From: a virus | Strand: one strand, 5' to 3' | Virus record (IMG/VR): IMGVR_UViG_3300033153_004471 | Location: 1-34,450 of that record | Length of the DNA stretch: 34,450 nucleotides | Part shown: positions 1-34,450 of the stretch, one piece after another | How positions within the stretch are numbered: the first letter of the stretch is position 1 | Layout: each line of letters starts with the position of its first letter | Program-made: the position numbers and the translations under genes | Notes under the pieces: model-generated | Told to the model about the DNA's origin: nothing | Databases searched by the model: none | Seen by the model: only the letters and a program-made list of their open reading frames with translations

Positions 1-26
1 AAAGTTGTTGGCGTCAATCAACTTGC
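1..26. repeat. Terminal direct repeat (left copy)
   Basis: Bases 1-26 are identical to 34425-34450. A reading frame continues intact through the joined ends (start at 102, stop at 33957). The repeat is therefore most simply the overlap left by assembling a circular or circularly permuted molecule. A short direct terminal repeat is less likely but not excluded. Confidence 0.9.
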
Positions 27-102
27 TGTGCCCTGGATTCAGCTCGTCCCAAATTGCGGATCGGCGACCTTTGACAACTAGCGTACTTATTCCTATGCAC
101 AT
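1..102 (-). CDS. LRR-like repeat-array protein, 5' part (gene continues at 34424)
   Basis: This is the start of a 189-residue protein whose remaining codons lie at 34424-33957. The ATG at 102-100 has the ribosome site AAGGAG at 114-109. The first 27 residues (MCIGISTLVV...) are read here, and frame is kept exactly across the 26-base terminal overlap. If the contig were treated as linear, the remainder would wrongly appear to start at a TTG at 34445. The protein opens with Met-Cys and has a His near residue 25, features shared with the neighbouring repeat protein at 156-719. Function unknown. Confidence 0.8.
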   Translation of the reverse strand, partial: MCIGISTLVVKGRRSAIWDELNPGHSKLIDANNF

Positions 103-120
103 ATTAGTCTCCTTGTTATT

Positions 121-168
121 CCGGGGCGAGCCAGGTCGATGAACATTGTTAGCTTTCACCCGCCCCGG
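121..168. other. Intercistronic GC hairpin 1
   Basis: Inverted repeat CCGGGGCG (121-128) with CGCCCCGG (161-168), in the gap between the two repeat-protein genes. It sits just upstream of the AAGGAG ribosome site of the downstream gene on the minus strand. There is no U-run after the stem, so it is not a standard intrinsic terminator. RNA stability or a translation barrier is more likely. Confidence 0.6.
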
Positions 169-719
169 TTACATGGCGGATCATTCTCCCTTTGCTTTGC
201 CGGAATATATTTTGTGCCGCCATTCCTGACGTTCTGCACCGTGCCGCCATCCCTGACGTTCTGCACCGTGCCGCCATCCTTGACGTTCTGCACCGTGCCG
301 CCATCCCCGACGTTCTGCACCGTGCCGCCATCCCTGACGTTCTGCACCGTGCCGCCATCCTTGACGTTCTGCACCGTGCCATATAAATAGGCACAACACC
401 CTTGCAAGTTGTCTATTGTTTTTCCGGGAAGAATCACCTTAGCTTTTATCCATTTAGCTAGTTCACGTCGCACCCGCTTCTCGTCTTTTTCTTTGTTGGC
501 CCATTTAGGCAGAAGGTCTTGGTCGAAACCGAACACCCACTTTCTGGCGGGGATGCTGTAGTCATTGTGGGGCGGCACTATCTCCACGCGAAGGATATTT
601 ACGCCTCTTGTTCCGCTTTCGTTCAATTTATGCTCGGCTATAATTTCCTCATGTGAATCTGATGTTCTACTCCAATAAACCTTTGTTTTGGTCAAGACGA
701 ACGACGCTTCTCTACACAT
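156..719 (-). CDS. GTVQNV nonapeptide-repeat protein
   Basis: A 187-residue protein with ribosome site AAGGAG just before its ATG. Residues 1 to about 105 form an N-terminal domain (MC at the start, SDSHEEII around 20-27, W61, D66, P71, W73). It is followed by six near-perfect nine-residue units GTVQNV(K/R/G)DG (about 114-168) and a polar tail. The DNA repeat is 27 bp, so copy number can change without loss of frame. The repeat suggests a beta-solenoid. The N-terminal domain has the same landmarks as the next gene downstream (102 to 33957), which carries a different repeat. Role unknown; a host-interaction or decoration role would be inference only. Confidence 0.75.
   Translation of the reverse strand: MCREASFVLTKTKVYWSRTSDSHEEIIAEHKLNESGTRGVNILRVEIVPPHNDYSIPARKWVFGFDQDLLPKWANKEKDEKRVRRELAKWIKAKVILPGKTIDNLQGCCAYLYGTVQNVKDGGTVQNVRDGGTVQNVGDGGTVQNVKDGGTVQNVRDGGTVQNVRNGGTKYIPAKQRENDPPCNRGG
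214..375. repeat. Six tandem 27-bp repeats
   Basis: Six consecutive 27-bp units start at 214, 241, 268, 295, 322 and 349, with a five-base partial copy at 376-380. Copies differ only in three bases around the middle (TTCCTG, TCCCTG, TCCTTG or TCCCCG). On the coding minus strand these change one Lys/Arg/Gly codon and, in one copy, Asp to Asn. Each unit encodes nine residues of the protein at 156-719. Confidence 0.97.
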
Positions 720-737
720 AGTTTGCTCCTTATTACT

Positions 738-772
738 CCGGGGCGAGCTAGGCCGACTAACGCCCGCCCCGG
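738..772. other. Intercistronic GC hairpin 2
   Basis: The same arms as hairpin 1, CCGGGGCG (738-745) and CGCCCCGG (765-772), in the gap between the lipoprotein gene and the GTVQNV-repeat gene. Flanking sequence (GAGC.AGG.CGA) also resembles hairpin 1, so the two gaps look duplicated. Confidence 0.6.
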
Positions 773-784
773 TTTACATGGCTC

Positions 785-1069: not shown

Positions 1070-1270
1070 CTAACCGTTGCCACGGTTATTTGGAAAAATA
1101 TCATCCAAGGGCACATCCAATAGCCAACTGATTGTTTGGGCTTGCTCTACAGTCGGGGCTGTCTGGCCGATTATCCAATTTCTAATGGTTGCCGGCGTAA
1201 CCCCAATTTGCTCCGCCAGCCACGACTGCCTACGCCCCTGGGCTTCTAATGTCTCAGCGAGTTTATTCAT
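1070..1270 (-). CDS. XRE/Cro-family DNA-binding regulator
   Basis: A 66-residue helix-turn-helix protein of the Cro/C1 class. The motif runs through LAEQIGVTPATIRNWIIGQ (about 19-37), and the C-terminal VPLDDIF is typical of the family. It is the only clear transcriptional repressor-like gene in the genome. The ATG follows an AAAGGCGG ribosome site and an extended -10 promoter (1291-1319), so it can be transcribed independently of the tail operon. It is the first gene of the accessory block and may control its own transcription, although no operator repeats are obvious. Confidence 0.85.
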   Translation of the reverse strand: MNKLAETLEAQGRRQSWLAEQIGVTPATIRNWIIGQTAPTVEQAQTISWLLDVPLDDIFPNNRGNG

Positions 1271-3255: not shown

Positions 3256-4043
3256 GCAGACAACCCTAGCGTAGTAAAATCGCCGGACTCGTATATAGGA
3301 TCATGACCGTTCTTGGTTCGTACTGCCTCCGCCGCTCCAATCTTATCTCGATAGGCATGGTTCCAGCTATGTCTTTTAATAAGAAAATGATAAGTAAGTT
3401 CCCAATCTTCGGCGCCGTCTACAGTAGTCGAGCGCCTAGCCTCGGCCCCCGCAAATACTACGTGCTCAGGATCATAACCGCGCCACTCTGCATCATTCAC
3501 TTTACCCGTCAGACTGGATACCGTCAAATCTGGCAAGCTGGCTACATGATAACGGGTAATGCTAAAGTGTGTAGTGCTCGTTATCTTACCAGGCATTACA
3601 TCGCCTTTGATGGGTGTGCCGTCGCTGGTCCATTCATATTCTGTATCTGGCAAGGTGAGCATCTCAGTTGCCACAGATATATTTTCCTCTTCTACAATCT
3701 CCGGGTTATCAGGGCTAACATTCAGGACATGACCATATTGTGCAGTTATTTTGGCATACTCATACGTAATATACGGTCCATCGGCATTAAATGATTCCCC
3801 GGGTACGCCCAAGCCTTCGACGCGAACAGACTCGCATTGCAGAAACGGCGCGTAAGGAAATGAGTTTGGCGGTTCAAACTCACCCGGAGGCCATATCTTA
3901 TAGCTACCCCTAAGCCATGTAGCGAATGCCACAGCGTCAGACCACGCAACTTTGAATATCCGAGTAGCCGACGAGCCGCCTTTGGCGAATGAAAAAGAAC
4001 AGGAACCTACCAGCTCTTCATACGGTATATCTGTTGCTGCCAT
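3252..4043 (-). CDS. Tail protein downstream of tape measure (distal-tail-like position)
   Basis: A 263-residue protein, the first gene after the tape measure, preceded by AGGAATACATT. Composition is mixed alpha/beta with long beta-like stretches. Phrases such as WELTYHFLIKRHSWNHAYRDK look structural. In siphophages this position normally holds the distal tail or tail-hub protein, but I cannot see a diagnostic motif, so the assignment is positional. Confidence 0.55.
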   Translation of the reverse strand: MAATDIPYEELVGSCSFSFAKGGSSATRIFKVAWSDAVAFATWLRGSYKIWPPGEFEPPNSFPYAPFLQCESVRVEGLGVPGESFNADGPYITYEYAKITAQYGHVLNVSPDNPEIVEEENISVATEMLTLPDTEYEWTSDGTPIKGDVMPGKITSTTHFSITRYHVASLPDLTVSSLTGKVNDAEWRGYDPEHVVFAGAEARRSTTVDGAEDWELTYHFLIKRHSWNHAYRDKIGAAEAVRTKNGHDPIYESGDFTTLGLSA

Positions 4044-4052
4044 AATGTATTC

Positions 4053-5765
4053 CTATTGCAATGCCCAGGGGGAGGCAGACTTAAACCAATCAATGAGCGT
4101 GCCTATGCCCGATGCAGTTTTCTGTTGATGCTTTTCTTGTTTCTTCATTACCGTTAGTTGATTTTGCTGAATCTTCTCCGGTGATATTTTACCAAACGCC
4201 GCAACCTGTACCCTCTTCCATGCCTCCTCAAGACCGACGAATTCCGGCGTGGGTCTTTCTTTAGCTTTTGCCCATTCAGGTATAGGCTGTTTTGCTAGAG
4301 CTTGTGCAAAGCCTATCCTTACCTCACCCCATACTACCTTAAAAGCATCGCTGACTTCTTTCCACCAAGCGCCCAATGACTTCTTGACCGCAGGCTCCGT
4401 CCGTTCCAACGACTTTCTAAAACCGTCCATTGCTCTTTCGAGTAAGCTGACCGCCGGGGCTAATTCTATAAACCATAATCTATATTGTCGGATAAGCCCT
4501 AACTGCTCCTCTTTCATTCTACCCCACAAACTAAGTTGGCTGGACATCGAGTTATTAATCTTCCCCATAGCCTCGGCCATTATCTCGGCTACCTCGGCAA
4601 AAGCTGGGCTTACGATTGCCTCATCTTCTTTAGCTCTACGCCGAGCCACTTCCTCTTTAGATACTGTGCGCAGTTCGCGGCCTAACATTCCGAATAGGCC
4701 TCTAGGTTTACCTATATATTCTGTTCTCATTCCACCAGTAATTCTATCTAGCTTTGATTCTATCCCCCTCTCTATACCAACTACTATTCCCTTACCGGCG
4801 GCCATAGCAAGTACCGCAGCGGCTCTAACAAACGCTTTGAGCATAATCAGAATCGAATCTATCATCGCCTGGAACTTGCCTTTGAAGTCTGTTTCCTGCC
4901 AGAAGTTCTTTAGGATTCCGGCGAAGTATTTTACATGCACCACCGCTTTTTGTGCCCATATCCCCCACGCCCGCTCGTTCTTTTCAATCCATTTATTCAA
5001 ACCTATTAGCCCGCGAGTAGCCGAGCCAATTAAAGACTTGCCGATAGTCTCAGCAACGTTTTTGATATTACCTCGTAGTCGCTGCATCTGGTTGGCATAA
5101 CCTAGAGCAGTTCTTGTAGCGTCCGTCATGGCGTCTGTAGAAGAAGCCACTATGATATTATATCTAACCTGCAATCGCTGGGCCGCAGTAAGTGCTTTGA
5201 GATTCTTACCTAACCCCATAGCCCAAGCCGCCTGCTTCATCTTGTTTTCATCTATCATTATACCATATTTACGGACAGTCTCGTGATTGCCGACAAGGGC
5301 AGATGTAAAGTCCCTAAGCACATCTTCGCTGGCAACGTTACTGAACGATCCCACGTCTACAGCTAATTGCACGATAGCCTGTGAAAGCCCCATTGCCTCC
5401 TTGCGGGCAAGGCCCATCGGCACGAGAATGTCCTGTATCCCCGACATCCATCGTTTTACATCCTGCCTAGCCCTGCCGACTGCTTTAGCAAAAGTATTGG
5501 CCCACCTATCCGCAGCCTTGCTGTGCTTGCCGAAAACGACATTGAACTTGCTTTGAATTTCGAGCATATCTCCGGCAGCTTGGATAGCCTTTCGCATCGC
5601 AAGTACTATCGCTGCCGCAGATGCCGCCACAAGAACAGCCATGCGTTTCGCCATCTGAGCAATGCCGCTCATAACCCGCTTCATCTGATTGCGTACATTC
5701 GCTAGGCCGCGCATGAACTTACCAGTGCGGGCGGTTATGTCTACATAGGCTTCGGCTAGTTTCAT
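4053..5765 (-). CDS. Tape measure protein
   Basis: A 570-residue, mostly helical protein: MKLAEAYVDITARTGKFMRGL start, hydrophobic segment around 40-60 (MAVLVAASAAAIVLAM), then the TMP core (about 75-260) with phrases such as SQAIVQLAVDVGSFSNVASED and KYGIMI. At roughly 1.5 angstroms per residue the length predicts a tail of about 85 nm. The ATG overlaps the stop of the frameshift extension (ATGA at 5765-5762), the usual chaperone to tape-measure coupling. Confidence 0.9.
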   Translation of the reverse strand: MKLAEAYVDITARTGKFMRGLANVRNQMKRVMSGIAQMAKRMAVLVAASAAAIVLAMRKAIQAAGDMLEIQSKFNVVFGKHSKAADRWANTFAKAVGRARQDVKRWMSGIQDILVPMGLARKEAMGLSQAIVQLAVDVGSFSNVASEDVLRDFTSALVGNHETVRKYGIMIDENKMKQAAWAMGLGKNLKALTAAQRLQVRYNIIVASSTDAMTDATRTALGYANQMQRLRGNIKNVAETIGKSLIGSATRGLIGLNKWIEKNERAWGIWAQKAVVHVKYFAGILKNFWQETDFKGKFQAMIDSILIMLKAFVRAAAVLAMAAGKGIVVGIERGIESKLDRITGGMRTEYIGKPRGLFGMLGRELRTVSKEEVARRRAKEDEAIVSPAFAEVAEIMAEAMGKINNSMSSQLSLWGRMKEEQLGLIRQYRLWFIELAPAVSLLERAMDGFRKSLERTEPAVKKSLGAWWKEVSDAFKVVWGEVRIGFAQALAKQPIPEWAKAKERPTPEFVGLEEAWKRVQVAAFGKISPEKIQQNQLTVMKKQEKHQQKTASGIGTLIDWFKSASPWALQ

Positions 5766-20066: not shown

Positions 20067-23036
20067 TCAGGTCTCCTTGATTACAGGTAATAAGTCGCAA
20101 CGGCAATTACTTGACAAAACCCCATTGGCACTGTATAATGTCCCCCTAGATTGGAGGTCGTACACATGACCAGTAAAAGAATAGCGATTGACGTAGACAA
20201 TCTTATTAGGCTTTATCAGGCTGGAATGTCTGAGAAGAAGGCTGCGGAGTTCTTTGGTGTGGACCGCGGCACTATCCGCAAGCGGCTCTTGGCTGCTGGA
20301 ATCAAGCCCAGAGGGAGAAGCGAGGCTATGTACCTCCGCATGAGCCAGACTTCGCCTGCTGAACGCCGGAGACTCAGTTCTGCCGCCCATAATGCGATCA
20401 GAGGCTCTAGCCAGACTGATAAGCATAGGTGTAAGATTGCTCGGACCATTGAACGTAAAGGTCTTCTTGTCTCTCGTATCGAGCGGAAAGCTATTGCCAT
20501 GCTGCGTGTACGCGGATTCTCTTGCATTCCTCAAAAGGCCGTCGGTCGCTACAATATCGATATAGCCATTACAGAACCTCCCATCGCCGTGGAGATATTC
20601 GGGGGCCACTGGCACGCTAGTAATCTCCACGCCCGGAGATTCCATAAGCGACGCAAATACATTCTCGACCAGGGCTGGCTCCCAGTGTGCATTTGGGTTA
20701 CTAGGGACTACCCGCTCGAAGCTGGAGCAATCGAGTATATCGTCGCCCTCGCACAACGACTTCGCAGAGGTGAAACCATCGACAGTCAGGAGGAGATGAT
20801 TCGGGGTAACGGCGAGTTGTCTGCCGTCGGCAAGCGTAAGTTCGACAACTTCGCCTGAGTACCAAGCCTTAAATCCCGATACAATGTCAGGGGCTATTAC
20901 TGCTTGGCCCGGCAATATACAATTCGGATGAATTGGCGGGTAATTTATAGGCCCATAGTCAGTGCCCAGCTTGCCGCCGTCTACGCCTGTTACCGTCTCG
21001 CCTTGATCTACGAATGTACTGCCAAGAGATACGCCGCCGGTTCCCGGCCCAAATTGAGCATTCATGGCCTGGCAGAACTCGCACATATCGGCGGCACCGT
21101 TCCATTCTTTAGCCACAACGACTTCAGAGTCGCCCCATGCTTGCTCAGTCCCAGCCATCATAGCTCTGGCTGATTCAGTACGGGCAATCATATCGGCACG
21201 GTTCCGGGTGATCTCCGGGCCGAACACCTTCTCCTCGATTCGCTTGCGTAACTCTATCATAGTCTCCCCGGCCTCAAGGCCCTGGGCAAAATGTAGCTGT
21301 AGTTTGGCATTGGTCTCTTTGTTCACCGCTTGGGCGAACTTGAAGCTATGCTTCTTGACAAACGCCTGAGCCTCCGGGGTGTTTATATCGAAACTAAGGC
21401 CAAGGCCAAGCTGCTGCATACCTCGCTTGCCACCAGCAGCTAAAAGCTTCTTCATGTCCGCCTTGCTACGTTTCACAAGCTCTTTGTTCCACTTGTCGAC
21501 ATTCACCTTGGGCACTTTTGCCTTTGCTTGAATAACAGCTTTCGGCATACTTCCCAACACTTCGGCCTTCTGTTGCTGGAATACCTGCCTAAGTATAGCT
21601 GCTAGACTATCTCGTGGCGGTGGCAAGTCGTCCGGGTCGATAAAACGGAGAGTAGGACCAGCTTCTAAACCAGTCCTATCTCCGCCTGAGAGAGAAGGAG
21701 AGAAGCTTTGTGTTCCTAACGGCACTAAGTTCATAGGCATAATCGGAGTATCACCCCATTCTACGGGTTTTCGGTTATCTTCAAGACGTTCTTCGTTGAT
21801 TGTTGTGTAACCCGTTCTGAGATTGATTTCGCGTTCCTCAGCTGCGGCCCTTTTATCTTCCGGTACAGGATTATCAAAGGCTACGAATAGCTTCGGGTCG
21901 TATAATGGCAATAGCTGCTCGTTTAGCTTCTCCTCGATACGTCTGCAACGTGGCCGTATAGTACGCCGGGCATAAGAAACATTGCCTACAATCATACCCG
22001 TTACCGGGGCACTTTTGATATCCTCGACTGTGAGCAAACTCATAGGCACGCCAAAGATAGCCGCTATCTCTGTGCGAGTTACTTTACGGCCTTGCAAAAA
22101 TCCCATCTCTCGCGGCGTCAGTGCGATATTCTTAATGTCCAAACCGCCTTGGAGTATTGCAGTCTTTCCCGCATTTCTTGGCCCCCGATGCTTGGCGTTC
22201 CATTCATCTTTGAATCGTGTTATTTGGGCATCGGTAAGATTTTGCTCTGTCACAAAAATATTTTCAGGAATAGCATTATTACGCATCAAGGTGTTTTCGT
22301 AGGCACTCATCCCCTGGTGAGTATCGGCGGCTAGCGCAGCAGCGGCTAATGGACCTTTACCGTAATATATGTCAGCGGGGTCTGGATATTTCATGTGTAT
22401 AATTTCTTCCGGTTCATATCGCTCGCGGTTCATGGGATTTTTGCCGAATAGATAGCCATCGATAAATTTCTCCTTGCTCGGCAGTATTTTCATCCATTGG
22501 GCGGGTAATATCCATAGCTGAATAGGGACGTTTAGGCTGTTATAAATTATCAAAGTGTAGCAATTACCGGCAAGTTCCTGATATAACGTCCATTGTTCGA
22601 TAAGGTCGAAGGAGTTCATATACGGATTCACGTTCGCCATCAAATCCAGATACGGATGTTCAAGCACTTCCTCAACTTCCGCCGCGTTGATTAGTTTAGT
22701 CTGAAATGATTTATCAGCAAATAGGTAATCTCTAACCTTTGAGCTAACCGGGCGGGTCTTAGTTCTAATCTTTTGCGATTTACTGGATTTGGCTACGTAG
22801 AGTCGTAGAGGCACTGAGGCCACGGTAGTCGCGTTGATATTCGCACAAGCATATACCCAGGACACATATCGAGCTATGAGTTTATCATGACTGAGGTTTT
22901 GATATTGCGAATACAATTCATTTAGCGAAGCTGGCTGCGTGCTGATAAGTGATTGTGCCCGCTCTGGTACAGGTTCACCCGCTCTTTGTATCAGCCAATG
23001 CCCAAGGCTCGCCACGGCTGAATTAATTACACCCAT
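20067..23036 (-). CDS. Portal fused to Mu-F head morphogenesis protein, interrupted by an intein
   Basis: A 989-codon frame. Residues 1 to about 470 are an HK97-type portal (SWVYACANINATTVASVPLR, GNCYTLIIYN, TRTEIAAIFGVPMSLL). About 500-705 plus 978-989 are a Mu gpF/SPP1 gp7-like domain (ARTESARAMMAG, MCEFC, PPIHPN|CRC). Residues 706-977 are an intein of 272 residues inserted between Asn705 and Cys978. Splicing would give a 717-residue product. The portal forms the packaging ring and Mu-F acts in head assembly. ATG 23036 follows AAAGGAT. It lies directly after the large terminase and a tiny gene. Confidence 0.9.
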   Translation of the reverse strand: MGVINSAVASLGHWLIQRAGEPVPERAQSLISTQPASLNELYSQYQNLSHDKLIARYVSWVYACANINATTVASVPLRLYVAKSSKSQKIRTKTRPVSSKVRDYLFADKSFQTKLINAAEVEEVLEHPYLDLMANVNPYMNSFDLIEQWTLYQELAGNCYTLIIYNSLNVPIQLWILPAQWMKILPSKEKFIDGYLFGKNPMNRERYEPEEIIHMKYPDPADIYYGKGPLAAAALAADTHQGMSAYENTLMRNNAIPENIFVTEQNLTDAQITRFKDEWNAKHRGPRNAGKTAILQGGLDIKNIALTPREMGFLQGRKVTRTEIAAIFGVPMSLLTVEDIKSAPVTGMIVGNVSYARRTIRPRCRRIEEKLNEQLLPLYDPKLFVAFDNPVPEDKRAAAEEREINLRTGYTTINEERLEDNRKPVEWGDTPIMPMNLVPLGTQSFSPSLSGGDRTGLEAGPTLRFIDPDDLPPPRDSLAAILRQVFQQQKAEVLGSMPKAVIQAKAKVPKVNVDKWNKELVKRSKADMKKLLAAGGKRGMQQLGLGLSFDINTPEAQAFVKKHSFKFAQAVNKETNAKLQLHFAQGLEAGETMIELRKRIEEKVFGPEITRNRADMIARTESARAMMAGTEQAWGDSEVVVAKEWNGAADMCEFCQAMNAQFGPGTGGVSLGSTFVDQGETVTGVDGGKLGTDYGPINYPPIHPNCILPGQAVIAPDIVSGFKAWYSGEVVELTLADGRQLAVTPNHLLLTVDGFTSAKSLCEGDDILDCSSFERVVPSNPNAHWEPALVENVFASLMESPGVEITSVPVAPEYLHGDGRFCNGYIDIVATDGLLRNARESAYTQHGNSFPLDTRDKKTFTFNGPSNLTPMLISLARASDRIMGGRTESPAFSRRSLAHAEVHSLASPSGLDSSSQEPLADSAAVHTKELRSLLLRHSSLIKPNKIVYVNRYSFTGHVYDLQSRGTLYSANGVLSSNCRCDLLPVIKET
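20111..20139 (+). promoter_or_regulatory. Consensus sigma-70 promoter for the endonuclease gene
   Basis: Plus strand: TTGACA (20111-20116), 17-base spacer, TATAAT (20134-20139); both hexamers perfect. The predicted start is near 20146, just before the TTGGAGG ribosome site (20151-20157). The promoter is embedded in the minus-strand codons for the intein C-terminal splicing motif (LYSANGVLSS). Confidence 0.85.
20166..20858 (+). CDS. Vsr-like homing endonuclease, antisense inside the intein
   Basis: A 230-residue protein, the only convincing plus-strand gene. ATG 20166 follows TTGGAGG by eight bases and a consensus promoter. Residues about 12-50 are a helix-turn-helix (LYQAGMSEKKAAEFFGV, DRGTIRKRLLAAGIKPRG). 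About 100-200 form a Vsr/EDxHD-type nuclease core: E106 (SRIERKA), D132 (YNIDIAI), E143 with IFGGHWH (H148, H150), and KYILDQGWLPVCIWV. It should cut an intein-less portal gene near the HPN-C codons and drive homing. Its codons lie exactly opposite intein codons 22-252, so none of its Leu or Ser codons is TTA, CTA or TCA. Confidence 0.85.
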   Translation: MTSKRIAIDVDNLIRLYQAGMSEKKAAEFFGVDRGTIRKRLLAAGIKPRGRSEAMYLRMSQTSPAERRRLSSAAHNAIRGSSQTDKHRCKIARTIERKGLLVSRIERKAIAMLRVRGFSCIPQKAVGRYNIDIAITEPPIAVEIFGGHWHASNLHARRFHKRRKYILDQGWLPVCIWVTRDYPLEAGAIEYIVALAQRLRRGETIDSQEEMIRGNGELSAVGKRKFDNFA

Positions 23037-30269: not shown

Positions 30270-30529
30270 TTTGGGGGCGCCTCCGGCGGGCCCAGTGGTA
30301 TTACCCTGACGCGATTCGCTCTACCCGTAAATATCTCCAATGTGGCTGCATCCTGCTCCGCCGCCGCCAGGTTCCAATTAGCACCATCTATCGCAAGAGC
30401 CTTGGCGATGCTGGATGTGGTTTGCGGACCTTCTTTTTCGCTGTGGGTGCTGAGCCCATAGTAGTATCTCGGCACTACCGCCGGTGCTCCCTTTTTACTC
30501 ATTTCTTCGATTATAAATACGCTACTCAT
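30266..30529 (-). CDS. Small hypothetical protein in recombination cluster
   Basis: An 87-residue protein. ATG 30529 overlaps the nuclease stop. MSSVFIIEEMSKKGAPAVVP, then YYYGLSTHSEKEGPQTTSSI and a proline-rich tail. No family recognised. Coupled to the two nucleases on either side. Confidence 0.55.
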   Translation of the reverse strand: MSSVFIIEEMSKKGAPAVVPRYYYGLSTHSEKEGPQTTSSIAKALAIDGANWNLAAAEQDAATLEIFTGRANRVRVIPLGPPEAPPK

Positions 30530-31628
30530 CAGCATCCTCGCTTTCTTCTTCCCCCAAATATCCAGGCTCACCCTTATTTCGCTTGAATGTAGCTCGTTGA
30601 CTTATGACATTTACGCCCCAATAATGGTCGTCCACTTGAATGGGCCCGTTGGCGGCCACATTTGCCTTCATTGTCTTGATACGATCCGCTATCTCTGCTT
30701 GCATTTTTTCAGTGGCACCAGCAAAGGCCACGCGATCAGTATCTATATCAGCATAACGACGTTCGGCATTGCAATGATGTTTTATAGAGCAATACTGACA
30801 ACGCTCAAAGCCTGGCTGCGGGGCCCATTCTTCCTCTGTCAACATCTGGCCGACAGCACTTTTGATAATATGCTCATTAGCCTCAAGGTCTTGTAGATTA
30901 TATACATACGGCTTACCCCATGAACCCCTACGACAATAGAATGGCTGCCAAGTAACCTGTTCGACATCTTCTATATATCGCCATGTAACCACACTATAGA
31001 ACATAGGCTGTAGTCCGAAGTTGCGGCTCCAGCCCGTTTTCCAGTCAACTATCTTGATTTCGCCCTTGCCATATCCCCGGACACCCAAATCTGGTCGGCA
31101 GGATAGCACTACGTCCTCCCCCCTGGGTCCAAACCTCTCCAGCGTATAGCTGAATTGCTTCTCGTGAGCCACATAGCTTGGCTGCCAAATAGATATCCGG
31201 GCTCCGGTCAATTTGGCCAAATGCAGCAATTCGGGCTGATAACGAGCATCGGCGGCCACGGCTAACTGACAGAGGGCCTCTGGGCTGCGTGAGTCGCCGC
31301 TGGCTAGCAGTTCGTCGATATACTCGGCCATAACAGCATGGAAGGCTACGCCTACGTTAGCGGGCCTGTCAGCGTCAGCATCGGGGCGTTTACGATAGTC
31401 TACGGGGATATCCTGGGCTTCTAGCTCAAACTTACTCAGCCACCACTGATCCGAATAGTCCAAATCGCCGCTACACTCCCATCGCTCGTATATCTCGGCC
31501 AATAACTGTGCTTTGGCCCAAAAACTGCACTTGGCATAAACGTCTAAATTGCTGCGATCTATTCTGATAACCTCTTGTGGCTTGGGCTTTTTGCCAGCGG
31601 CGACGATTTGTTCGTAGAGATCGGGCAT
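30522..31628 (-). CDS. RecB/Cas4-like PD-(D/E)XK exonuclease with Fe-S cysteines
   Basis: A 368-residue protein. NVGVAFHAVMAEY with His97; CRPDLGV with Asp180; IKIVDWKTGW with Asp195 and Lys197 (PD-(D/E)XK core). Four cysteines, Cys34 and FERCQYCSIKHHC (277, 280, 286), match the split Fe-S cluster of AddB/Cas4-type nucleases. It directly follows a RecT-like gene, so the pair likely acts as exonuclease plus annealing protein for recombination and end processing. Confidence 0.8.
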   Translation of the reverse strand: MPDLYEQIVAAGKKPKPQEVIRIDRSNLDVYAKCSFWAKAQLLAEIYERWECSGDLDYSDQWWLSKFELEAQDIPVDYRKRPDADADRPANVGVAFHAVMAEYIDELLASGDSRSPEALCQLAVAADARYQPELLHLAKLTGARISIWQPSYVAHEKQFSYTLERFGPRGEDVVLSCRPDLGVRGYGKGEIKIVDWKTGWSRNFGLQPMFYSVVTWRYIEDVEQVTWQPFYCRRGSWGKPYVYNLQDLEANEHIIKSAVGQMLTEEEWAPQPGFERCQYCSIKHHCNAERRYADIDTDRVAFAGATEKMQAEIADRIKTMKANVAANGPIQVDDHYWGVNVISQRATFKRNKGEPGYLGEEESEDADE

Positions 31629-31651: not shown

Positions 31652-32644
31652 CTATTGATTTTCGACTTCCGGTGTCCCCTGGACAACACCGGGAACCCAA
31701 TGCGGGTCTAATCCATTGACCTCTAGTTCGTGGATACATTTATCCGCCAAGTCGTCAGTCCAATTATCGGTATTAGCAATATCAACACCTTCGTCGGCTA
31801 CTCGCTTAGCCAAATCCACGGCTGCAAAATATAGAATATCCGCAGTTATCTCAATTTCCCCAGCGACCTCTAGCATCATGTCCCGGAGTTTCCCCGTAAC
31901 TGCGCTTATGGCTGGGTTAATTTGGGTTGTAGCTACTACTTGCGGCGTGGCCGTTCGTTCCTCTCGTGGGGGCAGTTCCGCAGCGTTTTTAGTAGTTTTC
32001 AGCGGAACCATCGGTTCGATATCAGTATATTGGCTCGCAAGTTCTTCGGGGAATGCCGCTCGTAACGCACGGGCTTTGGGTACTTTTTCCATCATCCAGG
32101 TATTCATCTGAGCCCATGAACGGACGGGCTTGCCGTTGCGGTCCGTCTTGACAATTTCTTCGTAAGGGCATTCTACATCGATAGGATATTTACGGTCTTT
32201 GCGGTGGACTATGGCATAACCGCCAACTATTTTATGTTTATCATCACGGGGATAATCACAGGCTTTGCCTCTTATTTTTTCACCATTTACCCGCCAGACC
32301 ACCCCAGATTCTATACCATCAAACTGCGGATGTCTCTGGGCTCGGTCTACGAACACTTCGTAATTGACCACAAATGACGGGGGGTCCCCGCTTTTATAGC
32401 GAATAAAATAAGCCTGTTTGCGAAATAGCGGGTCGTATTTATTGGCCGCGCACCATGCTAGGAAGCAACCTATCTCAAAATCAGATGTTTCCTGTTCGTT
32501 TCTACACGATGACAGCAATGTTCGACAACCCCGTATAGTCGTTGGAACGACTCTAGCATCATAAGTAACGATATCGAGCCCGCCATGTTCTATAATCTGC
32601 CGAACATCTACCCTGACAATATCAGTTGTGTGGCTATCTGGCAT
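31652..32644 (-). CDS. RecT/Bet-family single-strand annealing protein
   Basis: A 330-residue protein. ATG 32644 follows GAAAGGAGCGAAA; a longer frame upstream runs into the gap. KQAYFIRYKSGDPPSFVVNY, DRAQRHPQFDGIESGVVW, GGYAIVHRKDRKYPIDVECP and TWMMEKVPKARALRAAFPEE are the RecT/Bet core (about 105-245). The C-terminal third is acidic and helical. Works with the RecB-like nuclease next downstream. Confidence 0.82.
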   Translation of the reverse strand: MPDSHTTDIVRVDVRQIIEHGGLDIVTYDARVVPTTIRGCRTLLSSCRNEQETSDFEIGCFLAWCAANKYDPLFRKQAYFIRYKSGDPPSFVVNYEVFVDRAQRHPQFDGIESGVVWRVNGEKIRGKACDYPRDDKHKIVGGYAIVHRKDRKYPIDVECPYEEIVKTDRNGKPVRSWAQMNTWMMEKVPKARALRAAFPEELASQYTDIEPMVPLKTTKNAAELPPREERTATPQVVATTQINPAISAVTGKLRDMMLEVAGEIEITADILYFAAVDLAKRVADEGVDIANTDNWTDDLADKCIHELEVNGLDPHWVPGVVQGTPEVENQ

Positions 32645-32650
32645 TTTCGC

Positions 32651-32728
32651 TCCTTTCATAACCCGCCGACGGGGTTCACCTTTCGCAAGGGAATTTACCC
32701 GGCTTACCCCGCCGGACAGGCCAATAGG
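32651..32728. other. Intercistronic hairpins upstream of RecT-like gene
   Basis: The 93-base gap between lysozyme and RecT-like genes holds two small stems: AACCC/GGGTT arms (about 32660-32676) and CCGGC/GCCGG arms (about 32699-32715). Neither has a U-run. They resemble the hairpins found between genes of the accessory block. Confidence 0.45.
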
Positions 32729-32737
32729 ATGATTCAA

Positions 32738-33956: not shown

Positions 33957-34450
33957 CTAAATATATACCGTGCCTCTTACTTTGCATTTGGACCAGTCTT
34001 TTACACCGCTGCCGCTAAGGAAAAGCGAACCACCCACGGTAGTAAGCTTGCCAAGGGATTTTACACCGGTGTTCTCAAGGTTAAGCGAATCACCCACGCT
34101 AGTAAGCTTGCCAAGGGACGTTACACTGCTGCCGCTAAGGAAAAGCGAACCACCCACGCTAGTAAGCTTGCCAAGAGACTTTACACCGGTGTTCTCAAGG
34201 TTAAGCGAACCGAGAAACTTATCCTTTTCGACCAAGTCGATAAATTTAAGCACTTTACGCCATGTCATGGCCTCCCATTTCTGGGGGTCTTTGGTATACC
34301 AGTCTGGACATGTTCCAAACTCATCAACTATAATTATCCAATCGTTGCGGTTACGGGAGGTTAGGCTGCCTTGCGGATGAGCTTCGTGTTTAACAAACGT
34401 GCGATTTATTAACGTCGTATCAGAAAAGTTGTTGGCGTCAATCAACTTGC
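33957..34450 (-). CDS. LRR-like repeat-array protein, main part (gene starts at 102)
   Basis: This is the bulk of the 189-residue protein that starts at position 102. Residues 1 to about 105 form a domain with W63, D68, P74 and W76. Residues about 107-177 are leucine-rich-repeat-like units of 20 residues (60 bp) built on SLGKLTSVGGSL, alternating between a SLFLSGS and a SLNLENT version, so the larger DNA period is 120 bp. The tail ends in KDWSKCKVRGTVYI. The N-terminal part resembles that of the protein at 156-719, whose repeats are entirely different. Such units usually form a solenoid binding surface. Virion or host-interaction roles are guesses, and no enzyme motif is seen. Confidence 0.75.
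   Translation of the reverse strand, partial: KLIDANNFSDTTLINRTFVKHEAHPQGSLTSRNRNDWIIIVDEFGTCPDWYTKDPQKWEAMTWRKVLKFIDLVEKDKFLGSLNLENTGVKSLGKLTSVGGSLFLSGSSVTSLGKLTSVGDSLNLENTGVKSLGKLTTVGGSLFLSGSGVKDWSKCKVRGTVYI
33999..34210. repeat. 60-bp tandem repeats (120-bp higher-order unit)
   Basis: Phrases such as GTAAGCTTGCCAAG recur at 60-bp steps, and alternate units match best at 120 bp (CTGCCGCTAAGGAAAAGCGA alternating with GTGTTCTCAAGGTTAAGCGA). The repeats lie wholly inside the coding sequence of the LRR-like protein and keep its frame. Confidence 0.85.
34425..34450. repeat. Terminal direct repeat (right copy)
   Basis: Exact copy of bases 1-26. Collapsing the two copies gives a circle of 34,424 bases and restores one complete gene across the junction. 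Confidence 0.9.

Follow-up and report, generated by a model that had tools for sequence, protein, structure and literature searches.

The domain DUF6273 is already known as a target of diversity-generating retroelements (DGRs; PMC10743442, PMC11792537), and Roux et al. reported that the targets of such elements mostly have no similarity to known domains outside their variable region (PMC8144416). Class II glutamine amidotransferases of the N-terminal nucleophile (Ntn) type and SRAP/YedK proteins carry an invariant Cys directly after the start Met, and pentapeptide-repeat proteins such as MfpA and Qnr form a single-chain β-solenoid with which some of them act on a host enzyme. YdcK-like hexapeptide β-solenoid proteins (Pfam B_solenoid_ydck) and DUF7666/DUF6948 proteins are short products of phage early regions, which presumably likewise consist of a constant N-terminal portion and a tail of repeats; to our knowledge they have no known function either. 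Here we describe two neighbouring genes, A and B, from the virus record IMGVR_UViG_3300033153_004471, analysed over its positions 1 to 34,450 (the window). Their products share a constant N-terminal domain with an invariant cysteine at position 2 (the Cys2 domain) followed by unrelated repeat arrays, and in one clade of their relatives the C-terminal surface is diversified by a dedicated retroelement.

The window represents a circular phage contig: 34,424 bp are followed by a 26-bp overlap, the last 26 bases repeating the first 26. Its minus strand carries nearly all of the genes. Gene B, encoding 189 residues, spans the junction of the circle (102 to 33957). The two genes are laid out as follows.

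156..719, minus strand: gene A, 187 residues, the constant N-terminal domain followed by six 9-residue GTVQNVxDG repeats
411..719, minus strand: constant N-terminal domain of A, residues 1–103, with Cys2, Ser6, Lys11, His23, Glu46, Pro49, Trp61, Asp66-Gln67-Asp68, Pro71 and Trp73
219..380, minus strand: 27-nucleotide tandem array of A, residues 114–167
1..102, minus strand: first part of gene B, residues 1–34, with His25; the gene crosses the circular junction at 34424
33957..34424, minus strand: remainder of gene B, residues 35–189 and the stop codon
34227..34424, minus strand: remainder of the constant N-terminal domain of B, residues 35–100, in register with A, with Glu48, Pro51, Trp63, Asp68, Pro74 and Trp76
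34023..34211, minus strand: 60-nucleotide tandem array of B, alternating 20-residue units of leucine-rich repeat (LRR)-like type, SLNLENTGVKSLGKLTSVGG and SLFLSGSSVTSLGKLTSVGD
34425..34450, no strand: copy of bases 1–26, the circular-contig overlap, inside gene B

Both open reading frames (ORFs) begin Met-Cys, as an earlier note on this DNA had described. That note also pointed to a His at positions 23–25, a W...D...P-x-W block near 61–76 and repeats of nine residues in one protein and 20 in the other, and all of these were recovered by alignment and by a tandem-repeat scan of the window. The alignment of A with B pairs C2/C2, S6/S6, K11/K11, H23/H25, E46/E48, P49/P51, W61/W63, D66/D68, P71/P74 and W73/W76. 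The two arrays have by far the highest tandem-array scores in the window, with a 27-nucleotide unit repeated 6.2 times (95% matches) in A and a 60-nucleotide unit repeated 3.2 times in B. Variation within array A is confined to repeat positions 7 and 8.

A and B possess a real common N-terminal domain of approximately 95 residues. Their single BLASTP match is merely suggestive (E 0.028), so the pair by itself would not prove homology; comparison of profiles does. The similarity between the two domains is significant by hhalign, the kind of check that the earlier note had proposed, with a profile of four A-type relatives matching B at 91% probability (E 1e-6, 80 columns). In hmmsearch, a profile of 24 sequences from which B had been left out gave B a score of 31.5 bits (E 1.6e-8); among 2,000 shuffled versions of B the highest score was 4.4 bits. 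These two results rule out a chance likeness between two short Met-Cys proteins.

Eight residues of the domain (Cys2, Ser6, His23, Glu46, Pro49, Asp66, Pro71 and Trp73, in A numbering) are invariant in 43 diverse members, and K11, W61, Q67 and D68 vary in fewer than 10% of them. The start codon, be it ATG, TTG, GTG or ATT, directly precedes the Cys in all members in which the start was read; one seeming exception (codon CCT) would be locus L030, with its start at 3702 rather than at the default position, and the L030 translation has Cys after GTG. An earlier start codon is impossible at 48 of 60 loci. Cys2 is encoded by TGT in 39 cases and by TGC in 20, so that it is the residue itself that is under constraint. 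Ratios of non-synonymous to synonymous substitution (dN/dS) over the N-terminal domain were 0.06–0.23 for pairs with enough change; this domain is under purifying selection while the C-terminal parts change. One gene for the domain, at 4001–4519 of a 150-kb viral contig (L014/L054), has an in-frame TAA at the position of its relatives' Glu and is either broken or carries a recoded stop.

In an AlphaFold2 model of A the predicted local distance difference test score (pLDDT) was 83–96 in blocks of residues 1–100, and the N-terminal domain comprises four short strands and two main helices, for comparison with the four-layer αββα fold of Ntn hydrolases. No family for the domain was found in Pfam, NCBIfam, PHROGs or PADLOC, none convincing among PDB sequences, and a literature search found no description of it; none of the libraries searched describes the family. 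Weak isolated matches to Spb1_C, DUF3841, CopK and an excisionase were discarded as confined to one or two members or driven by the repeats, as was a PHROG match of B (phrog_14246, E 1e-4) that covers 12 residues only. The SRAP profile matched none of the 43 members; Ntn amidotransferases and SRAP/YedK proteins are much larger domains with MCG-type signatures, whereas the Cys2 domain has about 95 residues with S6, H23, E46 and D66 and no detected sequence match to either. Foldseek and VIA-align searches with A returned matches to its solenoid only, at background level, and a viral structure library matched two uncharacterised phage proteins. No PDB fold match to the N-terminal domain was seen in lists that were filled by matches to the C-terminal part, so the domain may yet have a known fold.

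Array A is predicted to form one β-strand per nine residues in a flat β-solenoid. It is not an RTX nonapeptide array (GGxGxDxUx), the unit being GTVQNVxDG, nor a member of the pentapeptide-repeat family, its period being 27 nucleotides or nine residues rather than that of five-residue A(D/N)LXX units; neither family gave a Pfam match. MfpA and Qnr also differ from the present proteins in having no Cys2 domain. The solenoid shape, an early position in the genome and a weak likeness of array A to MfpA (2bm7, Z 4.7, root mean square deviation (rmsd) 4.5, 84 residues) would suit a protein that mimics DNA and acts on gyrase or restriction enzymes, as these pentapeptide proteins do, but the periodicity is wrong, the repeats lack an acidic character (GTVQNV[KR]DG is about neutral) and the various C-terminal types of the family have little in common electrostatically; we find this explanation barely credible. 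Alternatively the repeats might polymerise or stack as a self-assembling scaffold, with length variation as tolerated slippage. Array A does resemble self-associating β-helices such as antigen 43 (4kh3, Z 5.0, rmsd 3.5, 89 residues), pentapeptide proteins match it at the same weak level, and the DNA repeats are near perfect. These Z values are background for repeat proteins, however, and a scaffold would not predict the swaps to LRR-like arrays or the hypermutated lectin domain described below, which makes it very unlikely. The 20-residue leucine-containing units of B were recognised by eye; the Pfam LRR profile matches neither B nor the related locus L050.

The earlier note had proposed a cassette in which a constant domain presents interchangeable repeat surfaces, and had suggested a survey of other phages for the domain joined to yet other repeats. 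Such forms were found. Approximately 60 non-redundant relatives (71 ORFs in the full listing) carry at least six C-terminal types. These include nine-residue units (SATVxAYD, SSQVGEMWG, GTVQKVxGG, SSTVQRMYD), LRR-like units of 19–20 residues (SGCTALTELKAEKAGYVDA; LRGTSIRRLPDNLTVEG), Ala/Asp/Arg arrays of RDAAWDAA type (L013), an array of GTVSGGKAWFYGSSQ with a unit of about 16 residues (L048), irregular β repeats (L023, L024) and, in further relatives, a lectin-like domain. Within the nine-residue units most arrays vary at two to five positions other than the V and V/M of the core, which are usually fixed; this is expected if a fixed core carries a surface that faces outward. Many uncultured viral contigs contain the domain, as do Clostridia prophages. 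It is rare among isolates (three of 50,697 phage records by tblastn), and a plasmid search returned no copies. Among 299 genomes from a single bacterial family it was found in one, the centre genome, which again makes the domain rare. Single-sequence searches of viral contigs with A or B found no relatives, whereas alignment queries did find some; searches seeded with L023 and L051 for more B-like forms returned the seeds only. Seven metagenomic contigs (L006, L007, L015, L016, L022, L025 and L026) terminate within repeat arrays, so assemblies systematically understate the length of the arrays.

Exchange of C-terminal parts and change in repeat copy number are both observed in the family. On a tree of 63 N-terminal domains, built from few columns and with many open forks, the seven C-terminal types distinguished require 11 changes against a minimum of six; LRR-like tails alone account for five changes, two of them forced by well-supported branches. 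Loci L008 and L010 are 99.97% identical over approximately 7.9 kb and differ by 48 nucleotides of array and almost nothing else. Two copies of the gene in one phage (L045 and L046) have N-terminal domains that differ at one synonymous site and arrays that differ. Two or more copies occur in six of 25 phage records, and one record has four in tandem. The profile tests, the survey and the 11 changes on the tree all support the cassette.

Its strongest support was unforeseen in the earlier note and comes from a clade in which the Cys2 domain is fused to a C-type-lectin-like domain (16 members were sampled, all from Clostridia, for the most part Lachnospiraceae, or from phages of these bacteria). 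The similarity of this C-terminal domain to DUF6273 is weak (profile E 0.003–0.05, below the cut-off). In an AlphaFold2 model of one member (pLDDT 91), residues 101–256 match C-type lectin folds, best the N-terminal part of 9qa6 (Z 13.2, rmsd 2.8, 152 residues), with Z about 7–8 against lectins proper. On the 3' side of the gene lie a 122-residue ORF in the position of Avd, without a Pfam match, and then a template repeat and a reverse transcriptase; a reverse transcriptase with YxDD was found nearby at 19 of the 22 loci checked (RVT_1 E 3e-15). When template and variable repeats were compared over 84 bases in 14 loci, changes had occurred at 199 of 336 template A positions against 24 of 840 other bases (p 1e-103). 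Four natural variants (L072–L075) differ at 11–20 of the 84 bases of the variable repeat, where almost every difference falls on a template A, but at no more than 0–3 of the 681 bases outside it. The variable residues sit, in the model, on the C-type-lectin fold at the C terminus. Together the template-A changes and the strain variants show that a dedicated machine diversifies the C-terminal surface of this clade, with the Cys2 domain held constant.

In its lectin-like C-terminal half with the variable repeat at the end, its Avd-sized candidate gene, template repeat and reverse transcriptase, and its mutations at template A, the clade is like described DGR targets with a DUF6273 or C-type-lectin domain (tentaclins, PMC10743442; those of Faecalibacterium prophages, PMC11792537; and Mtd of BPP-1). 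It differs from them in having the constant Cys2 domain at the N terminus in place of a tail-attachment, Ig-like or MTD domain, and most members of the family, A and B included, use tandem repeats without a retroelement. No YxDD-type motif of a reverse transcriptase was seen in any ORF of about 150 residues or more in the window.

In the window, A and B sit between a helix-turn-helix (HTH) regulator and a recombination block:

1070..1270, minus strand: HTH transcriptional regulator of Cro/CI type, upstream of A (phrog_3, E 4e-9)
31652..32737, minus strand: RecT-like annealing protein, downstream of B (phrog_2760, E 5.5e-35)
30522..31628, minus strand: recombination exonuclease, downstream of B (phrog_69, E 5.5e-9)

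Neighbours were scanned at approximately 30 loci, each scan covering the 25 commonest families. The families listed comprised antirepressors (Ant, KilAC, Bro-N, AntA), RecT, SSB, YqaJ/RecE exonucleases, RusA, HNH and PDDEXK nucleases, one endolysin and one terminase, as well as DUF6948, DUF7666 and a BspA-type LRR protein. These neighbours point to an early, cytoplasmic protein without proving it. The YdcK-like and DUF7666/DUF6948 proteins are also neighbours of the Cys2 family, although no sequence relation to its N-terminal domain was detected and the repeats differ. At L050 (3322–7037) four tandem Cys2-LRR paralogues are followed directly by two YdcK-like hexapeptide β-solenoid genes, so that this region is an island of solenoid proteins in one phage. 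At L005 (2760–3404) the upstream gene starts like DUF6948 and continues into a highly repetitive stretch, another early phage protein with a repeat tail.

The retroelement versions examined, over two regions of 40 kb, sit among genes for NAD synthase, NAMPT, isochorismatase, DNA methylases, GmrSD, PemK and RNA repair. Host-surface binding, one of the candidate functions in the earlier note, is disfavoured by this gene context, in which nothing tail-like was found among the families listed. The other candidate of that note, a defence protein, may hold as one example of a variable intracellular target. A virion receptor-binding or adhesion protein, with a variable surface for host-cell or mucus receptors, would nevertheless be in keeping with the known phage retroelement targets, since those characterised that have a DUF6273 or C-type-lectin domain are mostly regarded as proteins of the tail or as decoration proteins (PMC10743442, PMC11792537, PMC8144416). 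The present genes, by contrast, lie among early and accessory genes and away from tail genes among the families listed, and the families listed up to 20 kb away from two retroelement versions (25 of 35) include none of the tail or capsid; no tail attachment domain was detected, and the products are small Met-Cys proteins without an obvious signal peptide. We regard a virion adhesin as unlikely. In the 20 kb beside retroelement version L072 (L079, 7650–11253), genes for NAD synthase, NAMPT/NAPRTase and an isochorismatase-type protein are clustered, and next to the diversified protein they may form a set that restores NAD; enzymes with this activity are known from phage counter-defence (PMC12774641).

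Temperate phages and prophages carry the genes, which might also serve prophage defence or superinfection exclusion, the variable part sensing incoming phages and the N-terminal domain acting as effector once a ligand is bound. The invariant Cys, His, Asp and Glu could form an effector site, and in cyanobacteria retroelements diversify regulatory-type rather than surface proteins (PMC7517822). There is, on the other side, no PADLOC family match and no recurring partner gene alongside, and many copies lie in the early lytic block, from regulator to recombination genes, not in a lysogenic accessory region. Such a role appears unlikely.

The leaders of the two genes are also alike:

720..784, minus strand: leader of gene A, hairpin CCGGGGCGGGC...GCTCGCCCCGG followed by AAGGAG
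103..168, minus strand: leader of gene B, with the same hairpin arms and Shine-Dalgarno block as A

Directly 5' of the start codon, a leader of 31 bp common to A and B is identical at 27 of the 31 positions (similarity score 42, against a shuffle maximum of 23). The shared bases end in the Shine-Dalgarno motif and form one arm of a strong hairpin at both genes; the outer arm of the B hairpin overlaps the 3' end of gene A. No further copy of the shared leader was found elsewhere in the window, and an Rfam search returned no match. Elsewhere in the window, a portal/MuF fusion ORF (20067–23036, minus strand) has, by eye only, an insertion resembling an intein (CILPGQAVIAPDIVSGFKAWYSGEVVELTLADGRQLAVTPNHLLL ... 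LYSANGVLSSNC), and a long opposite-strand ORF nested in the same stretch (20151–20858, plus strand) resembles, likewise by eye only, a VSR/HNH-type homing endonuclease.

The reading that we favour, with modest confidence, is that A and B are cytoplasmic adaptors or effectors, made early and aimed at a strain-variable component by a diversifiable recognition surface. The start Met would be removed, as is expected before a residue as small as Cys, so that the protein would begin with a free Cys. This Cys, with Ser6, His23, Glu46 and Asp66, would make up a constant functional site, whose conservation suggests a catalytic or ligand-binding role. The solenoid or lectin at the C terminus would bind a host component, or one of a competing phage, that differs between strains, and would thereby bring the constant site to a target for the constant part to act on or recruit. 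Phages could re-aim the protein by gain or loss of repeats, by exchange of the tail or by retroelement mutagenesis, and the likeliest purpose would be the countering of variable host defences. In a more specific form, the Cys2 domain would be a new intracellular phage enzyme or adaptor that two unrelated diversity generators, repeat recombination and a retroelement, retarget as a counter-defence effector; this we advance tentatively, as possible rather than probable.

Several points weigh against the adaptor or effector reading. The retroelement clade forms a single branch of the tree, so what holds for it may not hold for the solenoid versions, and no retroelement lies in the window. Slippage can lengthen tandem arrays without any binding function. 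The N-terminal domain matches nothing of known function, conservation is the sole ground for speaking of an enzyme, and the target, partner and activity of the family are putative. The terms early and cytoplasmic derive from neighbours in metagenomic contigs, among the families listed.

A constant domain joined to a diversified binding surface is a known principle, and because the activity is putative the family is not a proven new kind of system. Tail and decoration proteins otherwise make up nearly all known targets of phage retroelements. In the present family one constant domain is joined to a lectin diversified by a retroelement in some phages and to hypervariable solenoids in others, and the genetic setting points to the interior of the cell. 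The finding connects a number of unexplained repeat proteins encoded in early regions of phages and makes available a motif for a family missed by current profile libraries. It also raises the question of what intracellular bacterial component varies fast enough to maintain a diversified phage recognition protein.
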